Part shown: in pieces, positions 3,894 to 20,767 of the stretch
Layout: the number at the start of each line of letters is the position of its first letter
Numbering within the stretch: the first letter of the stretch is position 1
Origin: a virus
Strand: one strand, 5' to 3'
DNA length: 20,989 bases
IMG/VR virus record: IMGVR_UViG_3300014497_000220
Location: 1-20,989 of that record
Program-made: the position numbers and the translations under genes
The notes under the pieces: generated by a model
Databases searched by the model: none
What the model was told of the DNA's origin: nothing
Seen by the model: only the letters and a program-made list of their open reading frames with translations

Positions 3894-4157
3894 ATGCAAG
3901 CACAGCACCAAAGCAGCAGCGACCCGAAGGCTAACACATCGACCAATGACGGCACCCAGTCGGCACGACATCTGATGGCCATCCGGATCGTCGGCACCGC
4001 GCTATTCGATTACCAGGTGCGGAAAACTCCCGATGCACGGATCCGCCTTGAATGCCTCGCCACCATGGCCCACGAACTCGGCGACATCAGCACGAACGAG
4101 GCCGCTGTTGTGGCCCAGCTGCTGGCCAAACCAATTTTCATCGGAGCATCTGTATGA
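3894..4157 (+). CDS. Small hypothetical protein
   Basis: The protein has 87 residues. GAGGG at 3882-3886 lies 7 bases before the ATG. The first 25 residues are polar and Gln/Ser/Thr-rich and probably disordered. The rest is helical (RHLMAIRIVGTALFDYQV, then LECLATMAHELGDISTNEAAVVAQLL). The stop overlaps the next start as ATGA. There is no known motif; its function is unknown, and it is likely an accessory gene of the element. Confidence 0.7.
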   Translation: MQAQHQSSSDPKANTSTNDGTQSARHLMAIRIVGTALFDYQVRKTPDARIRLECLATMAHELGDISTNEAAVVAQLLAKPIFIGASV

Positions 4158-4756
4158 GCAGCTACTTCTACAAATCGTCCACACATAAGACAGTGGCGAT
4201 CGTTCGCGATTTCTACAACTGTAAGGATGCTCAGCTCGAGGCAATGAAACGTCTTGGCGAGCATTTTGGCGGCACAGTTGCCCCTATGCGCGACATTACT
4301 TCCCACTTTGCCGGTGGCGTGAAGCTGAGCAGTAGCCGTGAACTAGACGTGCATTGGCGACGACCTGACGACTTCGGTTACCGGTCATTGCGACAAAACC
4401 CTATTCCACCGAAAGGCATCACCAAAGAACAGCGAGTAGCCATCCGTGAAGAACATAAACGCCTGGTTGGCTTGTGGGGCGAACACTGTCCGCCGCGATT
4501 GTGTGCCCACAAATACTGGGAACAGCTCGGCGTAAACACTGGAAATCTAATGCTCTCAGGAGGGATCAAGTTCGAGGTAAGCGGTATGGCCTATTTCAAT
4601 CTCGGGTTCGACATTAATGAGGCGGATCATTTGGCCAAGCTCGCGGCCGACAAACCATCCTTCGGCTGGATCGAGGGCGCAGTCGAAATCACTGCCAGCG
4701 AATTTGAAGCAGCCAGGAGAGTGAAGCTCGATAGCAAGGAGGTCGCTAGTGCTTAG
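4154..4756 (+). CDS. Hypothetical element protein, 200 residues
   Basis: The start is the ATG in the ATGA overlap with the preceding gene, with GGAG 7 bases upstream. The frame is open further upstream to 4052, but that part overlaps the previous gene. The protein begins MSSYFYKSSTHKTVAIVRDF. It has a basic middle region (ITKEQRVAIREEHKRLVGLWGEHCPP), two CPPRLC cysteines, and an acidic helical C-terminus. No signal peptide or membrane helix is seen. I do not recognise a family. It sits in the replication/regulation operon of a P4-like element. Confidence 0.75.
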   Translation: MSSYFYKSSTHKTVAIVRDFYNCKDAQLEAMKRLGEHFGGTVAPMRDITSHFAGGVKLSSSRELDVHWRRPDDFGYRSLRQNPIPPKGITKEQRVAIREEHKRLVGLWGEHCPPRLCAHKYWEQLGVNTGNLMLSGGIKFEVSGMAYFNLGFDINEADHLAKLAADKPSFGWIEGAVEITASEFEAARRVKLDSKEVASA

Positions 4757-4964
4757 CACCACCGTCACCCGCGAGCGTCCAGCGATGGCCAGCAAGCGGC
4801 TAGATCTGCCCAGCATCTGCGACATCTGCGGGACGGCACGATCGACCCGCAAACACCAGACCTGCAGCCGGATTCGTCAGCAACGTATGACGGTTGAGTG
4901 GGAGGCAGTGATGGCCGAAAAAGCCGCGGCCAAACAGTTGAAGGGACAACGCTATGCACGCTAG
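4749..4964 (+). CDS. Small putative zinc-binding protein
   Basis: The protein has 71 residues and starts at GTG 4749. A full AAGGAGGT ribosome site at 4736-4743 lies 5 bases upstream, which decides the start although it overlaps the previous gene by 8 bases. CDICGTARSTRKHQTCS shows three Cys plus a His in a zinc-ribbon-like spacing. The C-terminal third is a Lys/Ala-rich helix. Similar small Cys-containing basic proteins occur beside AlpA genes in phage-like elements. A nucleic-acid-binding role is inference. Confidence 0.65.
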   Translation: MLSTTVTRERPAMASKRLDLPSICDICGTARSTRKHQTCSRIRQQRMTVEWEAVMAEKAAAKQLKGQRYAR

Positions 4965-5005
4965 TGGCCGGAGTAGCAACATAACGAGCAAAAGGGGTAA
5001 CCAAC

Positions 5006-6588: not shown

Positions 6589-6632
6589 TTCCCAAGCTGA
6601 TAACGAGGGTTCGATTCCCTTCACCCGCTCCA
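6589..6632 (+). other. tRNA-Gly(CCC) 3'-half fragment: attachment site junction
   Basis: The sequence from the anticodon loop TTCCCAA (6589-6595) through the T arm GGTTCGATTCC to GCTCCA (ending 6632) matches the 3' half of a bacterial tRNA-Gly with anticodon CCC, as I recall it. The upstream bases do not supply a D arm or a 5' acceptor strand beginning GCGGGTG, so this is not a complete tRNA. Such 44-base pieces are left by integrases that rebuild the 3' end of their target tRNA. It marks the right boundary of the left element. Confidence 0.8.
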
Positions 6633-6885
6633 ATCAGATTTCAGTCTCACGTCGTTTTTTGACGGGGGATGCAGGTAAAGAAAAAACCGGCCTTGATGGC
6701 CGGTTTTTTTGTGCCTGGGGTTTGGTGGAATCGGGCTATGAGGCATCTCCCCTTTTTCGTCCGTTGTTCGCTGATCGATGAGTAAGTGCTCTCGGGGCGT
6801 TAGCGACTATCCTGAAATCCGTTAGCGTTTTTTTCGAAAAATACGGATTTATTATCGAATTTCATCAAGCGTTAATATTTTCATA
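6606..6885 (+). repeat. 280-bp direct repeat, copy A
   Basis: The stretch recurs without gaps at 20488-20767 (offset 13,882), with about 14 mismatches by eye. It contains the tRNA-Gly T arm and acceptor end, a terminator, and the first part of the fic promoter region. It bounds the right-hand island on its left side. The match ends abruptly after TTTTCATA. Confidence 0.9.
6681..6710 (+). terminator. Rho-independent terminator after tRNA-Gly 3' end
   Basis: ACCGGCC at 6686-6692 and GGCCGGT at 6698-6704 form a 7-bp stem around TTGAT, extended by an A-run on the left and a T7 run on the right. It is probably the native tRNA-Gly terminator, carried along with the repeat. Confidence 0.85.
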
Positions 6886-6961: not shown

Positions 6962-8527
6962 ATGCAAGTCGGTTTCAAGACCCTCGCAAACCGTTACGAC
7001 ATCGCACTGGCACAGCCTCTACGAGTCGACTCGATGATCGGCACTGTACGTGTCAGTCGCGAAAGTGACGGCAATGTGGAGAACCGGTATCCGGTAAGCT
7101 ATCGGCCCGCAGACGATTTCGCAGGACATTTCGAATTCGGCCTCAAGTACGAAGAGATCCATCTCGAGTTCTTCGCCCGCCTGTTTGCGACCATAGGTCC
7201 GCAGCCTGTCGAAGACTGGTGTCGACGGGAGCCATTCGGTCAGTATGCCCGTCGCACGGGATTCCTCTACGAATGGCTGACAGGGCAACGTCTGGATGTG
7301 CCAGACGTAACCAATGGCGGCTATGTTGATGTACTTTCGCCAAAAGATTACCTGACTCGTCGCGAGTCACTGCGAACTCGGCGTTGGCGAGTCAATAACA
7401 ACCTGCCGGGGACGGCTGAGTTCTGCCCCTTGGTTCGTCGTACGGTGCCAGTGCAGGAGGCCCTGCAATTCGATCTACGCGAGGCATTGGATGAATTGGA
7501 TCAGGCCTTTGGCCCCGACATCCTGATGCGTACCGCCAGTTGGCTGACGTTCAAGGAATCGCGCGCGAGCTTTCTCATCGAAAAGGAAGCCGACCAGGCC
7601 GATCGTATCCAGCGGTTTGCCCATGTCATCGCCCAGTACTGCGGACATATCAAAGACCCGTTGAGCAACGACAGCCTGCACTCCCTGCAAGCCGGCATTC
7701 TGGGGCGTGATGCCATTGGACTGGGCCTGCGGCGCTCTCCGGTGTTTGTGGGACAAGCCACGATGCGCGAGGACATCGTGCATTACATTGCCCCACATTT
7801 CGCGGATCTCGCTCAGCTATTGGCAGGACTCAACGAGTTTGAAGTTGCAACGCGTGGCGCGGAATCATTGGCACGTGCCGCTGTGTTGGCCTTTGGCTTC
7901 GTGTACATCCATCCCATGCGCGATGGCAATGGCCGGATTCATCGTTTCCTGATCAACGACACCCTGATTCGGGATAAGGCAGTGCCCGACGGCGTGATAC
8001 TGCCGGTGTCAGCCACAATCACGAGCTCGATCGACTTCAGGGCCGGCTACGACCGTACGCTCGAAGTGTTCTCGCGACCGTTCATGCGACGTTACGCAGC
8101 GGCCTATCGGTTCGGCGAACTCGTGACCTACGAGGACGGGACTCGCAGCAACTTCATCTTCGATGAATACGAGGACGCGTGTTTCGCCTGGCGCTATCCC
8201 GATCTGACCGAACACGTCCTGTACACCGCACGTGTCGTCGAGCACACGATTCGAAAGGAAATGGCGGATGAAGCCAGAGTACTGGTAATCTTTCAGCGAG
8301 CTCAGGAACAGCTGAAAGAGGTACTGGAAATGCCAGACCTGGATGCGAACCGCATCATCCGCTCCATCAAGGAGAACGGCTGGATAGTGTCCGGCAAGCT
8401 AAAGAAAGGGTACCCGCAGCTTGAAGATGCGCGCATGGCGGAGCGCGTTGTGGAGGCCGTGCGTTCTGCGTTTGAGGATCGAGAGATGAGTGCAGGCGAA
8501 GAAGGATTTTTCGGCGAGTCCGGGTAA
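6962..8527 (+). CDS. Fic-domain protein (putative AMP/UMP transferase)
   Basis: The protein has 521 residues with AAAGGA 8 bases before ATG 6962. The Fic core motif HPMRDGNGR starts at His317 within FVYIHPMRDGNGRIHRF and matches the family signature HPFxxGNGR, with Met in place of Phe. Fic proteins transfer a nucleotide, usually AMP, to hydroxyl side chains of target proteins. An upstream helix reads SRASFLIEKE, with Ser203 and Glu207, matching the autoinhibitory S/TxxxE(G/N) motif except that Lys replaces Gly. This points to a class II arrangement with the inhibitory helix N-terminal to the core. The last 130 residues form an extra helical region of unknown role. The gene stands alone between a repeat-rich promoter and its own terminator, so it is probably monocistronic. 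It may be a cellular regulator, a toxin or a defence effector. Confidence 0.9.
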   Translation: MQVGFKTLANRYDIALAQPLRVDSMIGTVRVSRESDGNVENRYPVSYRPADDFAGHFEFGLKYEEIHLEFFARLFATIGPQPVEDWCRREPFGQYARRTGFLYEWLTGQRLDVPDVTNGGYVDVLSPKDYLTRRESLRTRRWRVNNNLPGTAEFCPLVRRTVPVQEALQFDLREALDELDQAFGPDILMRTASWLTFKESRASFLIEKEADQADRIQRFAHVIAQYCGHIKDPLSNDSLHSLQAGILGRDAIGLGLRRSPVFVGQATMREDIVHYIAPHFADLAQLLAGLNEFEVATRGAESLARAAVLAFGFVYIHPMRDGNGRIHRFLINDTLIRDKAVPDGVILPVSATITSSIDFRAGYDRTLEVFSRPFMRRYAAAYRFGELVTYEDGTRSNFIFDEYEDACFAWRYPDLTEHVLYTARVVEHTIRKEMADEARVLVIFQRAQEQLKEVLEMPDLDANRIIRSIKENGWIVSGKLKKGYPQLEDARMAERVVEAVRSAFEDREMSAGEEGFFGESG

Positions 8528-11357: not shown

Positions 11358-11945
11358 CTAGGTGTTATTGCCAGCAAGGTTGTTCAACCGGCACTGCAGT
11401 GCTATGCCGTAGGCTGTCGAAAGATGGCGGGCCAGAGAACCACCCATTTCGATGTGTTGGGATAAAACCGTCTGGTGATCCGCATCTGTAAGGATGTTTG
11501 TAAAGATGAGCCAGGAATGCAGGTGTGGGGTTGTTTGGGTAATCGCTTGAGCAACGCTTTCTGAGAGAGCTCTCGCCTTGCGATCATCGGTAATGAATGC
11601 TTGGCGGATCCTACTTGCGAAGGCGATCGATGATAGCTCGCCTTTACCTAGTCTTCTTCGGCTTTCAAGATTTGCGATGGCTTGGAGATCGTCAATACTA
11701 CAGGAATGCGACGAAAATTTACCCTTGGCCTGCTCTTGCTTTAGGCGCTCTTTCAGCTCTAGGTCGGCTTCGGTGGGGGCTGTGCGAGGCTTGACCAGGC
11801 ATTCGTAAAGGACGAAACCCGTCATGCAGAACTCGCATTTGGCTTCCTGAGCTGCCGCATACAGCTGACGCGAGGACAAAATGTTCCAAACCGAGCAGGT
11901 GTCGGCCACATTGATCTTGTGGAATTTCGATGGATCAATAGCCAT
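11358..11945 (-). CDS. PIN-like nuclease, putative toxin
   Basis: The protein has 195 residues starting at ATG 11945, with AAGGA 7 bases upstream and an 11-base overlap with the XRE/ImmA gene's stop. The frame is open further upstream but without a better ribosome site. Features of a PIN-like RNase are visible: D15 in NVADTCSVWNILSS, E48 in LYE, G102-E103 in GKGELSSIAFA, and D120-D121 in FITDDRKA. These four acidic positions would form the metal-dependent RNase site. Pairing with an upstream XRE plus ImmA/IrrE protein matches a predicted toxin-antitoxin arrangement with DUF4411-type PIN proteins. The toxin role is inferred from this context. Confidence 0.75.
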   Translation of the reverse strand: MAIDPSKFHKINVADTCSVWNILSSRQLYAAAQEAKCEFCMTGFVLYECLVKPRTAPTEADLELKERLKQEQAKGKFSSHSCSIDDLQAIANLESRRRLGKGELSSIAFASRIRQAFITDDRKARALSESVAQAITQTTPHLHSWLIFTNILTDADHQTVLSQHIEMGGSLARHLSTAYGIALQCRLNNLAGNNT

Positions 11946-13065
11946 GTATTGTCCTTCCATACAGGGAAGCAAGTGCCGCCAGTTCGCCATAGCCGCAAAG
12001 GAGAGCTTCGGCGAGCCTGCCGAGGCTGATAATGCCTTGGCTATGCGCATCTAGGCAGAGCCTCACATAGTGATCGGACAGCCCACGTTCGAGTAGCGCA
12101 GCTTTTCTGGAGCGTTGTTGGGGGGTGAGGCTCTCTGGTAGTTCGGGGTCTATCTTTGCTTGCCGAGTAACACGATAACCTCGGATACGTCGACTGGTTT
12201 CAAGGTCAGCTCGCTGTGCAGTCTTTAAGGCAATTCCTAAGGCGTCACAGCTAACTCGAAACTTATTCGCCCACTCTTGAGCGTCCACTTCAGACCAGGT
12301 AGCCGGGTCGGAAAGCAAGCTGAGTGTTTCTGGAGGCATGAGGTAGCAGGAGGCGAACCTGTTTGCCCGCACTTCCCTGATGTCTTTGTCCCCCGGAATG
12401 GTCACGCCTGCCCCTTCTTCACTATCAAAAATACAGTGAGCCATTTCGTGCGCAGCACTGAATCGTTGTCGGTATACATCCTCGTTGTAGTTGACCAAAA
12501 TGCATTTGCCAGCGACAGGGTGCATCACAAAGAGACCTGAGATTTTGGAGTTGTCTAACTTTCGCCGGAACACATGTACACCGACTGAGCGAAACTCGGA
12601 GTAGATGTCTCGGGGCACCTCTCGGTCGGTATGACCCATTTGCCGGCGAAATTCCTTTGCCGCGCCTTCGGCATGAGCGAGGAAGTAGTTACCCCGTGGG
12701 GTGTAGGCAAAGGTACTGGCAGCACCACGGAGCTCTTGGGTTAAAAACTCTTCGGTTTCGCAGAGGTACAGAAACTCTTGAATGGCAGAGCGATCTTCCT
12801 TCGAGAACTCACGGCCATGCGCCCGGTAGAGCGTTTCAGTTTGCTTAAATGGGGCGACCTGCTCGTTTGATATAAAGAATTTGAAGTCGCATCGATAGTA
12901 GTCGGCAAGGATGAGCACCTCATCTCCTGTAGGCTCCAGTACACCCCTCTCGATATTATTCAGGCGTTCAACGTTGATGGCTGTGAAGGCTGCTATTTCG
13001 TCAACGGTTCGCTGAAGCTGGATACGATAGCGATGGAGCTTGTCGCCTAGGGCCTGGAGATTCAT
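11935..13065 (-). CDS. XRE-type regulator fused to ImmA/IrrE metallopeptidase
   Basis: The protein has 376 residues. An N-terminal helix-turn-helix of the XRE type occupies about 5-60 (TVDEIAAFTAINVERLNNIERG). A zinc peptidase domain of the ImmA/IrrE family follows: AAHEMAHCIFD gives H206, E207 and H210, and REVRANRFASCYLMP supplies the third ligand at about E231. The C-terminal 100 residues are helical and unassigned. Such proteins bind their own promoter and cleave a partner protein upon stress, or act as antitoxin. The gene overlaps the PIN-like gene by 11 bases, so they are co-translated. It diverges from the ATPase operon, and inverted repeats in the shared 237-base upstream region may be its operators. 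Confidence 0.88.
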   Translation of the reverse strand: MNLQALGDKLHRYRIQLQRTVDEIAAFTAINVERLNNIERGVLEPTGDEVLILADYYRCDFKFFISNEQVAPFKQTETLYRAHGREFSKEDRSAIQEFLYLCETEEFLTQELRGAASTFAYTPRGNYFLAHAEGAAKEFRRQMGHTDREVPRDIYSEFRSVGVHVFRRKLDNSKISGLFVMHPVAGKCILVNYNEDVYRQRFSAAHEMAHCIFDSEEGAGVTIPGDKDIREVRANRFASCYLMPPETLSLLSDPATWSEVDAQEWANKFRVSCDALGIALKTAQRADLETSRRIRGYRVTRQAKIDPELPESLTPQQRSRKAALLERGLSDHYVRLCLDAHSQGIISLGRLAEALLCGYGELAALASLYGRTIHGY

Positions 13066-13519: not shown

Positions 13520-15232
13520 ATGAAAGTGTATTACCACGCAGGAACTGACTGGAACAGAACTCCATCCAATCTAAAAACAGAAAAAAACCTGCTCGCACTC
13601 TCATATAATAACTGGGACGACTACAGCGTGAGAACGACGCTGAATGCCGTATTCTACTACGAAAATAAAAGCATTCTTGAATTTAGCCTTAAACTTTTGA
13701 TTGAGGGCGATGTAGACTCTCCGATAAAACTTAATGCCATGCGTAAGGATGGATGGGACGGCTTCTTTCCTATTCCGAAAACAAACTATGTGTCTGTCCC
13801 AAGTGATATCGAATTTTACGACGCACTGATCACCAAGCTTGGCGTTCAGGAAGCTAAAAATATTCTGTTGTTAATTAGAGATGCAGGCTACCTAATTAAT
13901 ATTTCTGGCGACAAAGCTGCGAAGCTCCTTACAGCCGATTCCAGTTTTGAAACCTCTCCGTTACGAGAAGCTGGCGCACGCAAATCATTCTCCGACGGTT
14001 GGAAAGCCTTCACCGGGAGTTCGTTGTCGATCCAAGACTTTACTCTCTACACACCAAGTCGTAATTTGCAAGGTGTTGACTCGATCAGATTTAGATTCAA
14101 CTCAGAAACGTTGCCGTATGATATCAACGTATTGATTGGGCCAAACGGCATCGGAAAATCTCACACGCTTAAAAACCTAGTCGAGTATTGGCTAGGCATG
14201 GCAGGCGGATCCCAGCGAGAGCTTAGCAAGACGAAGCACAAGCCATTTGATGTTAGCCCGAATATATCAAGGCTCATTCTTATCTCGTATAGCCCTTTTG
14301 AAGATTTTGTGCTCGATTTATCCAAGTCAAAACTGAATGACAAAACAGCTTATAAATACTTTGGCTTCAGAAGGGGGGCTGTGTCAGCCGCAGGGAAGCG
14401 CCAAAGCACTATCAGCCGAAACTTGCCAGCAAGCGACTCTGTCGAGTCTATATTTAAGGCTTTCGAAGATGACGAATCTTTTGCTTATCTAAGCAACTGG
14501 ACATCTAAGATCGACACTATCTGGGACGTCCTACAGCCGGCGCTGAATTTTGAAAAAATCGTCGTCGAGGTTGATCAGAAGTATGAACTACCCATCTCAC
14601 TTAAGAGGTTTTTAATTGAGGGTAAAGATCAGAAAAAATATATGGAATTGAATGGTAGTTCTTTCAGCAAACTTCACAAGCTGGATCCTAGTTTTGATGG
14701 TCTTGTAATTGCCAAGGAAGGTGTCGTCTTTCTGAGGGATTCCGAGCGGTTGGATTTGAGTTCTGGTCAGCGGCTTTTTGTATATATGGTTATTAACATT
14801 TTAGGACAAATTAAAGCGGAAAGTCTGATTGTTGTGGATGAGCCTGAGCTGTTTTTGCATCCGACTTTTGAAGTTGAATTCATAATGCTTTTGAAAAAAG
14901 TCCTGGCAGCTTTTAACTCAAAAGCAATACTTGCAACACACTCTCTCGCAATAGCTCGCGAAATACCTGCAAACTGCATGCATGTTTACCGAAAAGGCAA
15001 ACATGGCGTGGAAATTGATTATCCGCCTTTTGAGACCTTCGGAGGTGATATGCAGAGAATATCCTCATATGTCTTTGGTGATAGCAAACTAACTAAGCCG
15101 TTTGCACAGTGGATCGATAGAGCCGTCCAAGATGCTGGGAGCCCCAAGAAGCTTTTGGCTAAACTAAAAGGAGAGTTGAATGAAGAGATGACCATCAAAA
15201 TTCTAAACGCAGGAGTTCCTGATGGTCGCTAA
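13520..15232 (+). CDS. ABC-type ATPase, PtuA/Septu-like
   Basis: The protein has 570 residues with AAGGAAGGT at 13506-13514 before the ATG. ATPase motifs are complete: Walker A GPNGIGKS at 207-214, ABC signature LSSGQR at 413-418, Walker B LIVVDEPE at 436-443 and the H-loop ATHS at 472-475. These are typical of SMC/RecF/OLD-like defence ATPases. The first 200 residues form an extra domain of mixed fold, larger than I expect in classical PtuA. The stop overlaps the HNH gene by 11 bases. ATPase followed by HNH nuclease is the Septu (PtuA-PtuB) layout, in which the ATPase controls a DNA nuclease during phage infection. Codon use is much more AT-rich than in the left element, a sign of separate origin. 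It could also be an unnamed ATPase/HNH type. Confidence 0.85.
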   Translation: MKVYYHAGTDWNRTPSNLKTEKNLLALSYNNWDDYSVRTTLNAVFYYENKSILEFSLKLLIEGDVDSPIKLNAMRKDGWDGFFPIPKTNYVSVPSDIEFYDALITKLGVQEAKNILLLIRDAGYLINISGDKAAKLLTADSSFETSPLREAGARKSFSDGWKAFTGSSLSIQDFTLYTPSRNLQGVDSIRFRFNSETLPYDINVLIGPNGIGKSHTLKNLVEYWLGMAGGSQRELSKTKHKPFDVSPNISRLILISYSPFEDFVLDLSKSKLNDKTAYKYFGFRRGAVSAAGKRQSTISRNLPASDSVESIFKAFEDDESFAYLSNWTSKIDTIWDVLQPALNFEKIVVEVDQKYELPISLKRFLIEGKDQKKYMELNGSSFSKLHKLDPSFDGLVIAKEGVVFLRDSERLDLSSGQRLFVYMVINILGQIKAESLIVVDEPELFLHPTFEVEFIMLLKKVLAAFNSKAILATHSLAIAREIPANCMHVYRKGKHGVEIDYPPFETFGGDMQRISSYVFGDSKLTKPFAQWIDRAVQDAGSPKKLLAKLKGELNEEMTIKILNAGVPDGR

Positions 15233-16082
15233 AATCCCAAGACCTGGCGAAGACTGCATCGACGTTTTAAATCTTGTTCTTGGAGAACGAGTAAAATTTC
15301 GGAAATTTTATGGGCGGATAGCGCCCGCTCTTTCCGCCCAGTACGTATTGTACGAAGAGCAAAAGGGCTGCCCTTCTGGGATGCCACCATTAGAGCTGAG
15401 CAACTACGTTGACTCAGAGGCTGAGGTCGATGCCCGTAAAAAGTCGTTGATTGGATTGTACGCTCCAGACAAGGGGAAACACCCCTTTAACGAACTAGAA
15501 AAGCTCAGGAAAAAAAACAAACTTCTTGCGTGCCCTATTTGCGGGGAGCCGGGAAGGCCAAGGACACTTGACCATTGTTTGCCGAAGACGACATATCCAG
15601 AGTTTTCTATAAATTTGCTTAACCTAGTTCCCGCCTGTGACTGGTGCCAGGGTGAGAAACTTGCAGATTATAAAAACCCTGCAGGTTCGAGAAGTTTTAT
15701 TCACCCCTATTTTGATGATGTAAATCGTCCTTTATACACAATATCTCTGAAGAAACCTTATCTGACTCCTGTCATCTCCCTAAAGGTAAATGCAACCTTG
15801 CCATTGGAGCTGCAAGTGCTCGTGGCATCGCATTTAAAGGGTATCGATTTCTGGGAGCGATTCAAAGAATATTTTGAGTCTAGCTATCAAGGTATTATAC
15901 GCATTGCGAGCTCAGCCCGAGCCGGAGGCCAGATCACTGTAACTGAAGCCATTCGAAGTTCTTACTTGCTGACTGCTGAAAAAGGAGTCAACTGTTGGGA
16001 TGCGGTTTTATATCGTTCAATACTTGATGATGATCACGTCCTGGACTTCCTTGAGAATGGGAGACTGTCTATATTTCCTTGA
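15222..16082 (+). CDS. HNH endonuclease, PtuB-like
   Basis: The protein has 286 residues. AGGAG at 15211-15215 lies 6 bases before ATG 15222, inside the end of the ATPase gene. The HNH/zinc motif is clear: CPIC (C104, C107), then LDHCLPKTTYPEFS (D117-H118), NLVPACDWC (C139, C142) and K146. The two Cys pairs hold a structural zinc and the DH supplies the catalytic His. About 100 residues precede and 140 follow the nuclease core, probably for contact with the ATPase. The layout matches PtuB of Septu systems or HNH partners of retron-linked ATPases. There is no obvious terminator immediately after it. Confidence 0.87.
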   Translation: MVAKIPRPGEDCIDVLNLVLGERVKFRKFYGRIAPALSAQYVLYEEQKGCPSGMPPLELSNYVDSEAEVDARKKSLIGLYAPDKGKHPFNELEKLRKKNKLLACPICGEPGRPRTLDHCLPKTTYPEFSINLLNLVPACDWCQGEKLADYKNPAGSRSFIHPYFDDVNRPLYTISLKKPYLTPVISLKVNATLPLELQVLVASHLKGIDFWERFKEYFESSYQGIIRIASSARAGGQITVTEAIRSSYLLTAEKGVNCWDAVLYRSILDDDHVLDFLENGRLSIFP

Positions 16083-16197: not shown

Positions 16198-16749
16198 TCA
16201 GGACGCGGTATCCCAGGCATCCATTGCCCCACTCACTGTCTTGTTCCAGCCGAGCTCAGCGTTCTGTAAATTGCGTGCGACTTCCCTATTTACACTGGCA
16301 TCGACCCAAGACGGTAGACTTTCCTGATCGCCTGAGCAGAGGCTAGTCGTAGCTACCGCGTACCAACCAGTGCTCGTGGACTGGAGGCATACGTAGCGCA
16401 CTGCTGCTCCACTGGGAAGCCGACGCCAAGCCACCACCTCAATACAGTCCATGGCACTCACTGGAGCCTCTACGGCGGGACTCGCTTCCTGTTCCACCTG
16501 GACGTCTGCCGCAGCTTTGAATAGCCCGTTAGGCGTTCCTGGTTTGTGGACAAGATGCTTCAACTGCTCACGTGAGGCGATTATTTGTTCGCGGAGCTCT
16601 TCGGGGTCGATAGACATGCCACCACGCTCGGTCGTCGAAAGGGTCTTTAACCCGTTCACCGCGGCGATGAAGTCACGCTCTCACGCTTTCTCCCAGCCGG
16701 GGCGGCGGTCGGGGAACAGCCAAGCTGCAAGTCGCTGGAGGTTGACCAT
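16198..16749 (-). pseudogene. Unknown gene interrupted by an in-frame TGA
   Basis: Reading leftward from ATG 16749, 22 codons (MVNLQRLAAWLFPDRRPGWE then KA) are followed by TGA, and the same frame continues without shift as ERDFIAAVNGLKTLST for another 160 codons to 16198. The two parts read as one protein, so a single base change (for example CGA to TGA) probably broke it. A GTG at 16659 or ATG at 16617 could restart translation of the longer part, but neither has a strong ribosome site. The main part has a helical N-terminus (PEELREQIIASREQLKHLV) and a beta-rich C-terminus. I do not know the family. The rightward frame 16451-16915 is probably its shadow. Confidence 0.6.
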
Positions 16750-16952
16750 GGTGTATTCCGCAGCGCAGGTTGATGCCGGGAGGCCCGATAGGCTAACACT
16801 CGAATGCACGCTTATCCCAGAAGATGATGCTCGTGTAGCTTCAAGTGTATTCAGCGCTACCGGTCGGAACGTGCATTGTCTAATCCAATCAGACTCCCAA
16901 CAGGAAGCTTCATAGGCTAAAATCCCACGTTTGCGTCCACCTGGAGCTCTAA

Positions 16953-17540
16953 GTGCTCAGAGATAAAGAAATTCGAAGCGCTTTGGTTGACCACTTGATG
17001 AAGAGGTCGCCTAAACCTGCTCGAGTGATCGAAGAGCTCACCATCGACAATGGCAATGCCATCGCTGACGTAGTTGCGTGCTACCGTGAGATGCATTGCT
17101 ACGAAATCAAAGGCGAGACTGATAACGTTCGAAGAATTCTGTCGCAGTCGGAGTTCTACTCTAGGTCGTTCCCGAAACTGACCTTGGTCACCACTGAGAA
17201 CCATGTGCGCTGGGCAAGGGACAAAATCCCATCCTACTGGGGCATCATTCTTGCCACACCGGTTAAAGATCGGACAATCTTGCGCTACGTCCGCAAATCC
17301 GGTACGAATCCAAAGTTCTCCAAGAAAGATGCCCTTCTCATGCTTTGGAAGGCGGAGTTGACGGCCATTGCGAGCGCGCATCCAGAAGTGATCTTCAAAA
17401 AATCCTTCAACCGGGACGCCATTGCTGAGCAGATCAGCTATCAGTTAAGCCGCGACGACGCCTTGGCTGGAATCCAAGGCGCCCTCATCGAAAGACGCTC
17501 AAATGTTATTAACCACGAAAGTGATGTGAGCGGCGGTTGA
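16953..17540 (+). CDS. sce7726-family protein, PD-(D/E)XK-like nuclease
   Basis: The protein has 195 residues starting at GTG 16953, with CTGGAG upstream. The N-terminus MLRDKEIRSALVDHL and the series E28 (VIEELT), D39 (AIADVV), E51-x-K53 (CYEIKGETD) form the pattern of a PD-(D/E)XK nuclease core as seen in the sce7726 family. Several conserved-looking aromatics follow (SYWGIILATP). The family is often found next to sce7725/Beta-type proteins, and here a Beta-family gene lies directly against it, on the other strand with a 42-base overlap of 3' ends. DNA cleavage is inferred from the motif only. Confidence 0.75.
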   Translation: MLRDKEIRSALVDHLMKRSPKPARVIEELTIDNGNAIADVVACYREMHCYEIKGETDNVRRILSQSEFYSRSFPKLTLVTTENHVRWARDKIPSYWGIILATPVKDRTILRYVRKSGTNPKFSKKDALLMLWKAELTAIASAHPEVIFKKSFNRDAIAEQISYQLSRDDALAGIQGALIERRSNVINHESDVSGG

Positions 17541-18575
17541 ACTTTTTATCCACGTCCCAGGGTTACCCGTTTTCTTTGACCTGACTGGAGCCTTATAACT
17601 CCTATCATGAATGTATTGCTCGCCATAAGAATAATGCGGCGTATTTAGCCTGAAGAATGGCTCGTTCACAATCACATCGGAAATATCAAAGTATTGCTTA
17701 AACTTGTGAGTTTTAAAGCGCCGCCCACGCACAATAAAGAAAGTATCGTGATAGGTATAGAAAACCTTTGGCGCGGCCCGGCTGCTAATAAACTCAGGTT
17801 CCATCTCGAAATCCGAATATTCCGGACTGACCACTCCATAGTCTCCAAACAACACCTCCTTGAAGGCTGGAGTGGAGTTCAAAGCACGCCAGAGTTTGTA
17901 TTCCTCCCGAGATATATGCGCCTTGGAATTCGTCGAAAGCAGTCCAGCGATAGATGCCGGCACCACTGAGCCAGAGACAACTACTGTGGTGCCAGGGAAG
18001 TCTCCCTGGAAGCTAGCCACAAACCGTTCCACTTTTTTCTTGGAATCCACAGGATCGTCGATGATTCGCAGATCAACCAGAAGGAACACTGACTGAGGTT
18101 TGGCGACCGCTAAGTCAGCCCACAGAGCCTTAAGATTGCTCTTCGTAAGGTTGTAGCTTTCTATGTCGATCATCTGAAGTCGTATACCGACATTTGTCCC
18201 TGGTCGCGACTTGACAAAATCAAGCGCCGCAACGTTATGATCCGGATGTCGATCAAATGCCAAAACAGGCATAACTTGATAATTCGACAGCGTCGCAAGA
18301 ACTACTCGATACTGCGGAACGCCACCCAAATCGACGCTATCGTCGATATCAAAATTATCAACAAAAAATCTGTAATCTATATCCTTTCCCTGTGCGCTCT
18401 TTAGCTCTTTGTCTGCAATCCGCAAGCGATCAATGACTTCATCTTCATCCATCACTTTCTGCGTTCGGGGAATGTCATACATAGGAGCGATTTGATCACG
18501 GATCCCTCCATCCAGCACCCCAACACTTTGGATTTCATTCTGCTTAAGCTTAAGAAAAGGAACATATCTAATCAT
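17499..18575 (-). CDS. Beta-family protein (T4 Beta / sce7725-like)
   Basis: The protein has 358 residues starting at ATG 18575, which overlaps the ImmA/IrrE stop by 8 bases; an in-frame TTG at 18581 is an alternative. The N-terminus MIRYVPFLKLKQNEIQSV and the repeated strand patterns (VFLLVDLRIIDD, GTTVVVSGSVVPASI) fit the Beta_protein family (PF14350), named after a phage T4 protein, probably a TIM-barrel-like fold. The biochemical role is not established to my knowledge. It is third in an operon after a GNAT acetyltransferase and a metallopeptidase, and its end overlaps the convergent sce7726-like gene. Confidence 0.75.
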   Translation of the reverse strand: MIRYVPFLKLKQNEIQSVGVLDGGIRDQIAPMYDIPRTQKVMDEDEVIDRLRIADKELKSAQGKDIDYRFFVDNFDIDDSVDLGGVPQYRVVLATLSNYQVMPVLAFDRHPDHNVAALDFVKSRPGTNVGIRLQMIDIESYNLTKSNLKALWADLAVAKPQSVFLLVDLRIIDDPVDSKKKVERFVASFQGDFPGTTVVVSGSVVPASIAGLLSTNSKAHISREEYKLWRALNSTPAFKEVLFGDYGVVSPEYSDFEMEPEFISSRAAPKVFYTYHDTFFIVRGRRFKTHKFKQYFDISDVIVNEPFFRLNTPHYSYGEQYIHDRSYKAPVRSKKTGNPGTWIKSSTAAHITFVVNNI

Positions 18576-19434
18576 TGGCAAACCCGAAAGCGCTTTTAAC
18601 GTCCATAGAGTGATGCAATTCAGGGTAAAGCTTGTAATTTCTAGACTGGTGGCGAATCATCCCGGCCATGATGGATGGGTGCACTTCAGCTCTAGAGCAA
18701 ACATCCAGCAGCTGCTTTCTATCAGCCCTGACATTCCAGGCCATTCGCCAGTATTGGCGAGAGACCAAGCTATCTTTCGCGATAATATTGGCCTCAACCT
18801 CGCGATCAGAATCGTTATCCTCTTCAAGGTCGTCCAAAATGGGATTATCGAGATAGTCGTAATGCATATAGATATGGGCAAGCTCGTGCATTAGCGTGAA
18901 CCAGAAGTTATCGTAGCGATTGTAGCGAAGCGCTATCCCAACAACTGGCGTACCCTGCGACAGCTTGAAAGTACACCCATCCATTTTCATCGACTTGAAG
19001 CCAGGCTCCACCACCAGGAGCACCCCATAAGAGTCGGCCAAAATATCGACCAGGGATGTGATGCTATCCGGCTTAAGACTTAGAAGGGCAATTTCCCGGA
19101 GTTGTTGAATGCTCAACCCCTGGAAACCAGGCATCATCCGGCTCAGCAAAGTGAACTTGGATTTCTCATTGATCAGCGACAACCAAGCTTGAATCTTGGT
19201 CTCTTCCGCAGAGTCATTCTTGCGATAGAGCACCGCGTTGTTATTGGTCGCATTGAGGGCAAGGCGAATGATGAAGTCGTCATACGCCTCACCTGGTCGA
19301 GCATGCGTTTTGGCATCCGCTGGCTTCAAGACTTTCTTCAAGCTTGAAAGAGCCACCGTAAACTCAATCGCAGCGTCCCGCGAGGATGGATAAACCTCGA
19401 AGTCCTCTGGGAGCCCTTCTGGAGAGTCAGGCAT
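18568..19434 (-). CDS. ImmA/IrrE-family metallopeptidase
   Basis: The protein has 288 residues. The start overlaps the acetyltransferase stop by 8 bases, with GGGGAGG 7 bases upstream of the ATG. The zinc-peptidase motif is FTLMHELAHIYMH (H183, E184, H187), with REVEAN at about 211-216 giving the third ligand, as in ImmA/IrrE proteins. Unlike the other peptidase of this island it lacks an obvious helix-turn-helix; the N-terminal 110 residues are helical and include a stretch resembling antitoxin C-terminal regions. It probably cleaves a partner protein in response to damage or infection. Candidates are the Beta-family or acetyltransferase neighbour. Confidence 0.85.
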   Translation of the reverse strand: MPDSPEGLPEDFEVYPSSRDAAIEFTVALSSLKKVLKPADAKTHARPGEAYDDFIIRLALNATNNNAVLYRKNDSAEETKIQAWLSLINEKSKFTLLSRMMPGFQGLSIQQLREIALLSLKPDSITSLVDILADSYGVLLVVEPGFKSMKMDGCTFKLSQGTPVVGIALRYNRYDNFWFTLMHELAHIYMHYDYLDNPILDDLEEDNDSDREVEANIIAKDSLVSRQYWRMAWNVRADRKQLLDVCSRAEVHPSIMAGMIRHQSRNYKLYPELHHSMDVKSAFGFAND

Positions 19435-20113
19435 GATGAGCCTCCCCTGCCAGCATCCCAGCTATGTCAGGAGGCGCTTCGAAGTAGCGCAGGTTCTCTT
19501 TTTCGGCATCAACGTCGTACTCAATCATGCCCAGGTAGCGGTAGTACCCCTCCGCAGTCGGCAGAGAGTGCAAACAGAACCCTGGACGGTAGCCGAGCGT
19601 GTTGATGGCGAAGTGGGAGGCATGGGCAATCAGGATCCGACTGACGCTCCCGAACTGCTTCACATAGTTCGGTCGGTCTCGATTCCAGTACGCGGACGCA
19701 ACGTAGTCGATGTAGAAAATGCGCTCCCCATCCAGGCGGCTTTCCTTAGGATGGTAGATGACGCACGTCGCCTGGATCCGCCCCTGTGCACTCAGGAAGA
19801 ACCAGTGGTAATCATCGCTACGGAAAGCGAAGGCTTTATCCAGCCAACTCCAATGGAAATCTGATAACCCGTAGGCGGGCAGTTGGTCGAAAAGCACGTT
19901 GGGGTCGTCGACGGCAGCTGGAAAGTCAGCCATCAGCTGCCTCATGATCTGGCGCTTCTCAGTATCCCATTGCTCGCTCAGCTGGAACACATACATCGGT
20001 GCCAAGCCTTGCTGGATTTGGTAGGGAACCTGTTGACCTGTATGACGGCATAGAAGTAACGGCTCACCCATGTGGGCATCCTCCCGTACGGGCTTGATCA
20101 CTCCCCAATCCAT
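19427..20113 (-). CDS. GNAT-like acetyltransferase
   Basis: The protein has 228 residues. AGGA lies 9 bases upstream of ATG 20113. The central part has the GNAT beta-strand and acetyl-CoA-loop order: HWFFLSAQGRIQATCVIYHP, then IFYIDYVASAYWNR, then SVSRILIAHASHFAINTLGYR, then GFCLHSLPTAEGYYRYLGM. The classical Q/RxxGxG/A loop is not clear, so CoA binding is less certain than the fold. It is first in a three-gene operon with a metallopeptidase and a Beta protein. Acetyltransferases in such clusters may modify tRNA, proteins or small molecules; which applies here is not visible. Confidence 0.7.
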   Translation of the reverse strand: MDWGVIKPVREDAHMGEPLLLCRHTGQQVPYQIQQGLAPMYVFQLSEQWDTEKRQIMRQLMADFPAAVDDPNVLFDQLPAYGLSDFHWSWLDKAFAFRSDDYHWFFLSAQGRIQATCVIYHPKESRLDGERIFYIDYVASAYWNRDRPNYVKQFGSVSRILIAHASHFAINTLGYRPGFCLHSLPTAEGYYRYLGMIEYDVDAEKENLRYFEAPPDIAGMLAGEAHHA

Positions 20114-20487: not shown

Positions 20488-20767
20488 AGGGTTCGATTCC
20501 CTTCACCCGCTCCAATCAGATTTCAGTCTCACGTCGTTTTTTGACGGGGGGTGCAGGTAAAGAAAAAACCGGCCTTGATGGCCGGTTTTTTTGTGCCTGG
20601 GGTTTGGTGGAATCGGGCTCTGAGGCATCCCCCCATTTTCCTCCGTTGTCCACTGATCGATGAGTAAGTGCTCTCGGGGCGTTAAAGACTACTCTGAAGT
20701 CCGTTAGCGTTTTTTTCGGAAAATACGGATTTATTATCAAATTTCATCAAGCGTTAATATTTTCATA
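20488..20767 (+). repeat. 280-bp direct repeat, copy B, with 27-bp tRNA-Gly attachment core
   Basis: The stretch matches copy A (6606-6885) without gaps. The first 27 bases (20488-20514) are the T arm and acceptor end of tRNA-Gly; the bases to the left differ from the tRNA. The match then covers the terminator and the first promoter motifs. It closes the right-hand island. Confidence 0.9.
20563..20592 (+). terminator. Second copy of the tRNA-Gly terminator
   Basis: The sequence is identical in stem, loop and T-run to the terminator at 6681-6710. In this position no complete tRNA precedes it. Confidence 0.8.

Follow-up and report, generated by a model that had tools for sequence, protein, structure and literature searches.

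The virus record IMGVR_UViG_3300014497_000220, analyzed here over its 20,989 bases (the window), carries a cassette in which the genes for a GNAT-like acetyltransferase, an ImmA/IrrE metallopeptidase and a Beta protein form a leftward operon that runs into a convergent sce7726 gene (Table 1). This cassette is probably an anti-phage toxin-antitoxin-type module and a variant of gop-beta-cII and PD-lambda-2, in which a Beta-cII chassis would carry a cartridge made of the GNAT and an ImmA peptidase without an Xre domain, and would act by abortive infection. The window sce7726 gene is, by homology, the counterpart of cII of satellite P4, and is called cII below; P4 itself has gop followed by beta and a convergent cII, and RefSeq names P4 cII a sce7726 family protein. 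An earlier note on this DNA had proposed that the four genes are one unit, and this view is borne out by an order that recurs at 14 loci and by the co-divergence of the four proteins.

The coordinates, strands, 8-base overlaps and convergent sce7726 gene described in the earlier note were all confirmed on the sequence. The overlaps lie at 19427-19434 (GNAT/ImmA) and 18568-18575 (ImmA/Beta). Beta starts with ATG at 18575, and the sce7726 gene, with a GTG start at 16953 and its stop at 17540, overlaps Beta by 42 bp at the 3' ends. Translation of the GNAT gene may in fact begin at an internal Met near 20071. No promoter or terminator signals exceeding shuffled expectation were found.

Table 1. 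The four genes of the cassette, in window coordinates
Product	Position	Strand	Length (aa)	Remarks
GNAT-like acetyltransferase (P0004)	19427..20113	-	228	operon gene 1, in the putative toxin slot
ImmA/IrrE (M78) metallopeptidase (P0003)	18568..19434	-	288	corresponds to C-terminal two thirds of PD-lambda-2B; HELAH
Beta protein	17499..18575	-	358	PF14350; P4 beta / PD-lambda-2C family; predicted TIM barrel
sce7726 / P4 cII homologue (P0001)	16953..17540	+	195	predicted PD-(D/E)XK nuclease

We sampled 399 Pseudomonas and 398 Pseudomonadota genomes as well as viral contigs, and fetched and typed the surroundings of the matches. PF14350, the Beta family, was present in 37 of the Pseudomonas and 13 of the Pseudomonadota genomes. 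The order GNAT, ImmA, Beta and convergent cII was found in the window, at eight genome loci (L013, L076, L079, L080, L082, L083, L085 and L110) and in five viral contigs (L124, L125/L209, L126, L207 and L208). These 14 cassettes lie in at least 11 contexts, with related flanks only inside the groups formed by the window, L013 and L080 and by L083 and L085. The divergence of the four proteins is correlated (distance matrices r 0.92-0.96), and none of 2000 permutations reached the observed value. The ratio of nonsynonymous to synonymous substitution rates (dN/dS) was 0.04-0.12 across all four genes in the close pairs for which it could be computed, comparisons with the L013 Beta giving no ratio owing to saturated synonymous sites; by this measure purifying selection acts on all four genes among close relatives.

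Co-occurrence, which the earlier note had named as the check on its proposal, goes beyond chance for both pairs of genes. In the Pseudomonas sample this GNAT family occurs in seven genomes, in all seven inside the cassette, whereas Beta is found in 37 of 399 (hypergeometric 3e-8), and cII accompanies Beta in 28 of the 37 Beta genomes (hypergeometric 2e-25). In viral contigs Beta was found at 79 of 80 cII loci, many of these loci belonging to near-identical prophages. Of 51 distinct viral Betas, 50 have a convergent cII, every pair overlapping at the 3' ends; searches of viral contigs with single window proteins returned no related loci. The arrangement of the cassette is more than chance. The earlier note had also counted against itself a sce7726 gene that regularly pairs with other partners and is missing beside this operon. 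This holds only in part: Beta-cII is often found alone or with other partners, as expected of a shared chassis. A cII-like match occurs in 41 of the Pseudomonas genomes, 28 with Beta and 13 without, the latter being longer and weaker matches.

Across the typed loci, differences are seen mainly in the slot preceding Beta. In PD-lambda-2 proper this slot holds HigB and an Xre-ImmA protein, and no typed locus of this kind has cII in the fetched stretch. Elsewhere it is filled by DUF6932 and an Xre-ImmA protein (L010, L011, L066, L069 and L104, all with cII), by GNAT and Xre-less ImmA (the 14 loci, all with cII), by a membrane/coiled-coil protein of ~100-270 aa (identified by eye) with a short CapP-like ImmA (L077, L078, L084, L106, L107, L108, L112 and L114, with cII in all except L108), or by gop (P4 and L081), while eleven Pseudomonas loci have convergent Beta and cII with no recognized cartridge. 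Run across all loci including the window operon (L001), the gop profile matched only P4 and L081/L034, the latter two handles denoting a single locus. Judged by gene content, the DUF6932 and Xre-ImmA cartridge with convergent Beta-cII is another PD-lambda-2-like variant, and gop-beta-cII and PD-lambda-2 appear to share an architecture in which cartridges can be exchanged on a Beta gene that in most cases faces a convergent cII.

DUF6932 at its five loci shows a GSF..KP..GDxDxCW motif that looks nucleotidyltransferase-like by eye. At four Pseudomonas loci (L086-L089) a 111-aa HTH-like (helix-turn-helix) protein and a 345-aa ImmA protein lie beyond the cII of the convergent pair. Gop was considered as an ImmA peptidase and rejected, the protein having 133 aa and no Pfam match over cut-off; by eye it has two hydrophobic stretches and a coiled coil.

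Starting from the established gene set, its conservation and co-divergence, the exchange of cartridges, the predicted folds of Beta and cII and the catalytic motifs of peptidase and nuclease, we infer a defence role, the identity of the toxin, its trigger and the order of steps as follows. In the healthy cell a GNAT toxin and its ImmA partner would be kept inactive in a complex controlled by Beta. Phage infection would be sensed through Beta, upon which the cartridge (protease and/or GNAT) would be released and translation stopped, with cII perhaps acting as an accessory nuclease that cuts nucleic acid, so that the infected cell would stop before phage production. The neighbours of the cassette in the window, which are other defence candidates by PADLOC, support this model, as does the resemblance of free-standing ribbon-helix-helix (RHH)-GNAT-ImmA modules to RHH-GNAT toxin-antitoxin operons.

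P0004 has no direct match in Pfam, PADLOC, NCBIfam or PHROG. Its relatives are annotated as GNAT, and 7 of 12 scanned homologues match Acetyltransf_10 (GNAT) weakly, at best with E 4.4e-5. At the acetyl-CoA loop (RxxGxG, or more broadly R/QxxGxG/A) the window and L013 read QFGSVS and L080 reads QFGNVS, whereas the other 11 of the 14 orthologues retain the xxGxG part; purifying selection on the GNAT of the window clade is strong (dN/dS 0.05-0.08). We found no RHH gene upstream of GNAT in the window or in 12 other cassette loci scanned. Where this GNAT occurs without Beta (L003, L004, L005, L101 and L102) an RHH gene precedes it and ImmA genes follow in all five proteobacterial loci, and these free-standing loci adjoin multiubiquitin/ThiF, CBASS or other genes. 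Because RHH-GNAT-ImmA modules exist and toxin-like proteins fill the same slot elsewhere, the GNAT, or the GNAT-ImmA pair, would be a better toxin candidate than the mere sensor or modifier that the earlier note took it to be. Three of the free-standing loci (L003, L004 and L005) lie on plasmids as four-gene RHH-GNAT-HTH-ImmA modules directly beside CBASS or multiubiquitin/ThiF operons, and could possibly be regulators of these adjoining systems; at L003 the HTH protein scanned as CapH-like and the ImmA as CapP-like.

The peptidase matches PF06114 (E 1.4e-7) and carries HELAH together with a downstream Glu. Its match to PADLOC PD-Lambda-2_B (E 3e-50) is confined to model positions 161-396 of 402 and no Pfam HTH match was found in it, and by this profile coverage it is PD-lambda-2B minus its Xre domain. 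When the PDB was searched with sequence profiles, the peptidase and cII each had only weak matches, those of the peptidase being ImmA/CapP-like, and no real relative of GNAT or Beta was found.

A number of points weigh against the model outlined above. The acetyl-CoA loop has changed in the GNATs of the window, L013 and L080, so that acetylation may have been lost in this clade, and the GNAT fold assignment itself draws on weak profile matches and annotation. Toxicity in PD-lambda-2 belongs to B and not to A, so the identity of the toxin may be reversed. Cartridge-free Beta-cII pairs are numerous, and the chassis may accordingly have a function of its own. Finally, we found no description of the GNAT-ImmA-Beta-cII set in the searched literature, outside which lie preprints and many subscription journals. 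The earlier note knew of no described system with this set, which stands for the exact combination but not for its parts, as the beta-cII half of gop-beta-cII and the B and C components of PD-lambda-2 can be recognized in it.

The alternative that fares best, tentative as it is, assigns toxicity to the ImmA peptidase and has the GNAT neutralize or modify it, after the pattern of PD-lambda-2, with Beta arming the protease upon infection. In PD-lambda-2 the Xre-peptidase B alone is toxic and the HigB-like A rescues, while the Beta-type C is required for defence and not for neutralization (Vassallo et al. 2022, PMC9519451). P0003 corresponds to the C-terminal part of B, and a degraded loop in a GNAT kept under such strong selection is compatible with a role in binding only. 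Since the loop is degraded and PD-lambda-2B is toxic alone, it may be the protease that kills in the window clade. On the other hand, most orthologous GNATs retain their acetyl-CoA loop, other cartridges place toxin-like folds in this slot, and the toxicity of PD-lambda-2B may reside in the Xre part that is absent here.

We return to the chassis, whose Beta protein matches PF14350 (E 3.5e-49); among PADLOC models it matches PD-Lambda-2_C (E 1.3e-42) and not P4 'beta'. Beta is predicted to be a TIM barrel: its structural model (predicted local distance difference test, pLDDT, 92) has eight beta-alpha units and matches TIM barrels with Z up to 12.5 over 213 aligned residues (rmsd 3.5). In TIM barrels the C-terminal strand ends are the usual place of the active site. 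Among 30 sequences, 31 Beta positions reach at least 80% conservation; 10 of them fall within the C-terminal strand-end zones, which span 64 residues, and 2 within the N-terminal zones, which span 72. K11, E14, D73, D168, P206 and D245, all invariant or nearly so, are found at the C-terminal strand ends or close to them. At L013 Beta (3918-4988) is a diverged allele that was swapped in as a unit and shares 66-67% nucleotide identity with its counterparts in the window and L080, while the flanking ImmA and cII are 87-97% identical to the corresponding genes there. This comparison of alleles indicates that Beta can also be replaced independently of its neighbours, and the replacement between conserved ImmA and cII suggests that it may be the specificity part.

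The cII protein matches NF033832 (E 1.2e-45) and the PADLOC cII model (E 1e-19). Its structural model (pLDDT 91.5) resembles the PD-(D/E)XK nucleases PaqCI, Can2, EndoMS and BstEII with Z 7-10 (8.8 for Can2, 8.6 for EndoMS), and E28, D39, E51, K53, Q65 and Y69 are invariant across 32 sequences. The impression of a PD-(D/E)XK-like gene in the earlier note is thus matched by the predicted fold together with invariant E28, D39, E51 and K53, a shared fold that does not by itself show activity. These same features speak for the earlier note's own model, which gives the effector role to the cII nuclease, leaves sensing or modification to Beta and GNAT and lets the peptidase act as a switch, and the frequency of cartridge-free Beta-cII pairs indicates that the pair can stand alone. 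We nevertheless regard this model as doubtful. The surveyed HigB-type PD-lambda-2 loci, being without cII within ~4.5 kb, suggest that the group can dispense with it, and cII lies in a transcription unit of its own, convergent with the operon. The gop-beta-cII of satellite P4 defends against lambda and P1, and there it is Gop that is toxic without beta (Rousset et al. 2022, PMC9122126).

Least probable of all, and in our view very unlikely, is a regulatory module in which ImmA would cleave a repressor upon encountering single-stranded DNA (ssDNA) and so switch on neighbouring defence genes, in the manner of its relatives CapP and PprI (ssDNA-activated proteases that cleave HTH repressors) and as the GNAT-HTH-ImmA modules beside CBASS and multiubiquitin/ThiF operons might suggest, since no HTH or RHH protein was found in the cassette (Pfam scan; RHH scan upstream), its flanks are unrelated between loci and no constant downstream operon is seen.

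Beyond the cassette, a leftward gene at 16198-16750, divergent from cII, was considered as a fifth member and rejected because it is restricted to the window, L013 and L080 and is interrupted in the window by an in-frame stop near its N-terminus; its homologues in L013 (5725-6267, 180 aa) and L080 are intact. The window also carries an AAA ATPase and HNH nuclease pair at 13520-16082 (+), which matches the PADLOC candidate PDC-M01A/B (E 7e-227 and 2e-93) and is Septu-like, and at 11358-13065 (-) an Xre-ImmA protein, RmrA-like by PADLOC, with a PIN-like open reading frame (by eye) after it, which by sequence would be a second, separate ImmA-based toxin-antitoxin-like pair. A direct repeat of 280 nt, 95% identical, lies at 6606-6885 and 20488-20767 and begins with an apparent tRNA-Gly 3' end (by eye), ARAGORN finding no whole tRNA; a further 43-nt repeat lies at 7258 and 20774. 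The repeats bracket the defence cargo and look like duplicated attachment-site DNA.

These findings suggest that gop-beta-cII and PD-lambda-2, although catalogued separately, are versions of one modular system, and they add a third version with GNAT and ImmA, of which there are 14 examples. Tools that require PD-lambda-2 A or gop would probably miss the window locus, because the family models give no match to either. The models also provide testable roles for two long-known P4 genes, beta as a predicted TIM barrel and cII as a predicted PD-(D/E)XK nuclease, and the natural cartridge swaps make a set for asking which part senses the phage and which kills. Although speculative and rather unlikely, it is attractive to think that a single defence superfamily is built around Beta-cII. 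Beta would then work as an enzyme or as a sensor of small molecules and control the cII nuclease as well as a series of unrelated interchangeable toxins; if true, gop-beta-cII, PD-lambda-2 and the GNAT, DUF6932 and membrane variants would be a single system whose warheads can be swapped and which answers to a shared signal of infection.

Compared with known systems, the cassette is, by its sequence relationships, a variant of the gop-beta-cII/PD-lambda-2 group and a member of neither, being filed in neither because it lacks the HigB-like A and the Xre domain of PD-lambda-2 and the gop of gop-beta-cII. With gop-beta-cII it shares the Beta family, a convergent cII and a toxin-like gene position directly upstream of Beta; unlike that system, it has GNAT and ImmA in place of the membrane/coiled-coil Gop (the operon matches neither the gop profile nor the PADLOC family models for it), and its Beta is nearer the PD-lambda-2C models than the PADLOC P4 beta model. 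As in PD-lambda-2, ImmA directly precedes Beta, and the two match PADLOC PD-Lambda-2_B and _C. It differs in having GNAT where the HigB-like A would be (no PD-Lambda-2_A or HigB-profile match was found in the slot), in lacking the Xre domain of B, and in possessing a convergent cII, which the surveyed HigB-type loci do not. The GNAT-like protein, whose free-standing relatives follow RHH and precede ImmA, recalls RHH-GNAT toxin-antitoxin operons of the TacAT, AtaRT and KacAT type, from which the Beta-linked cassettes depart in having no RHH gene and, in the window clade, an altered acetyl-CoA loop. Unlike CapH-CapP and PprI-DdrO, the cassette contains no HTH substrate and its peptidase is closest to PD-lambda-2B, not CapP; what it has in common with them is an M78 metallopeptidase with HExxH.

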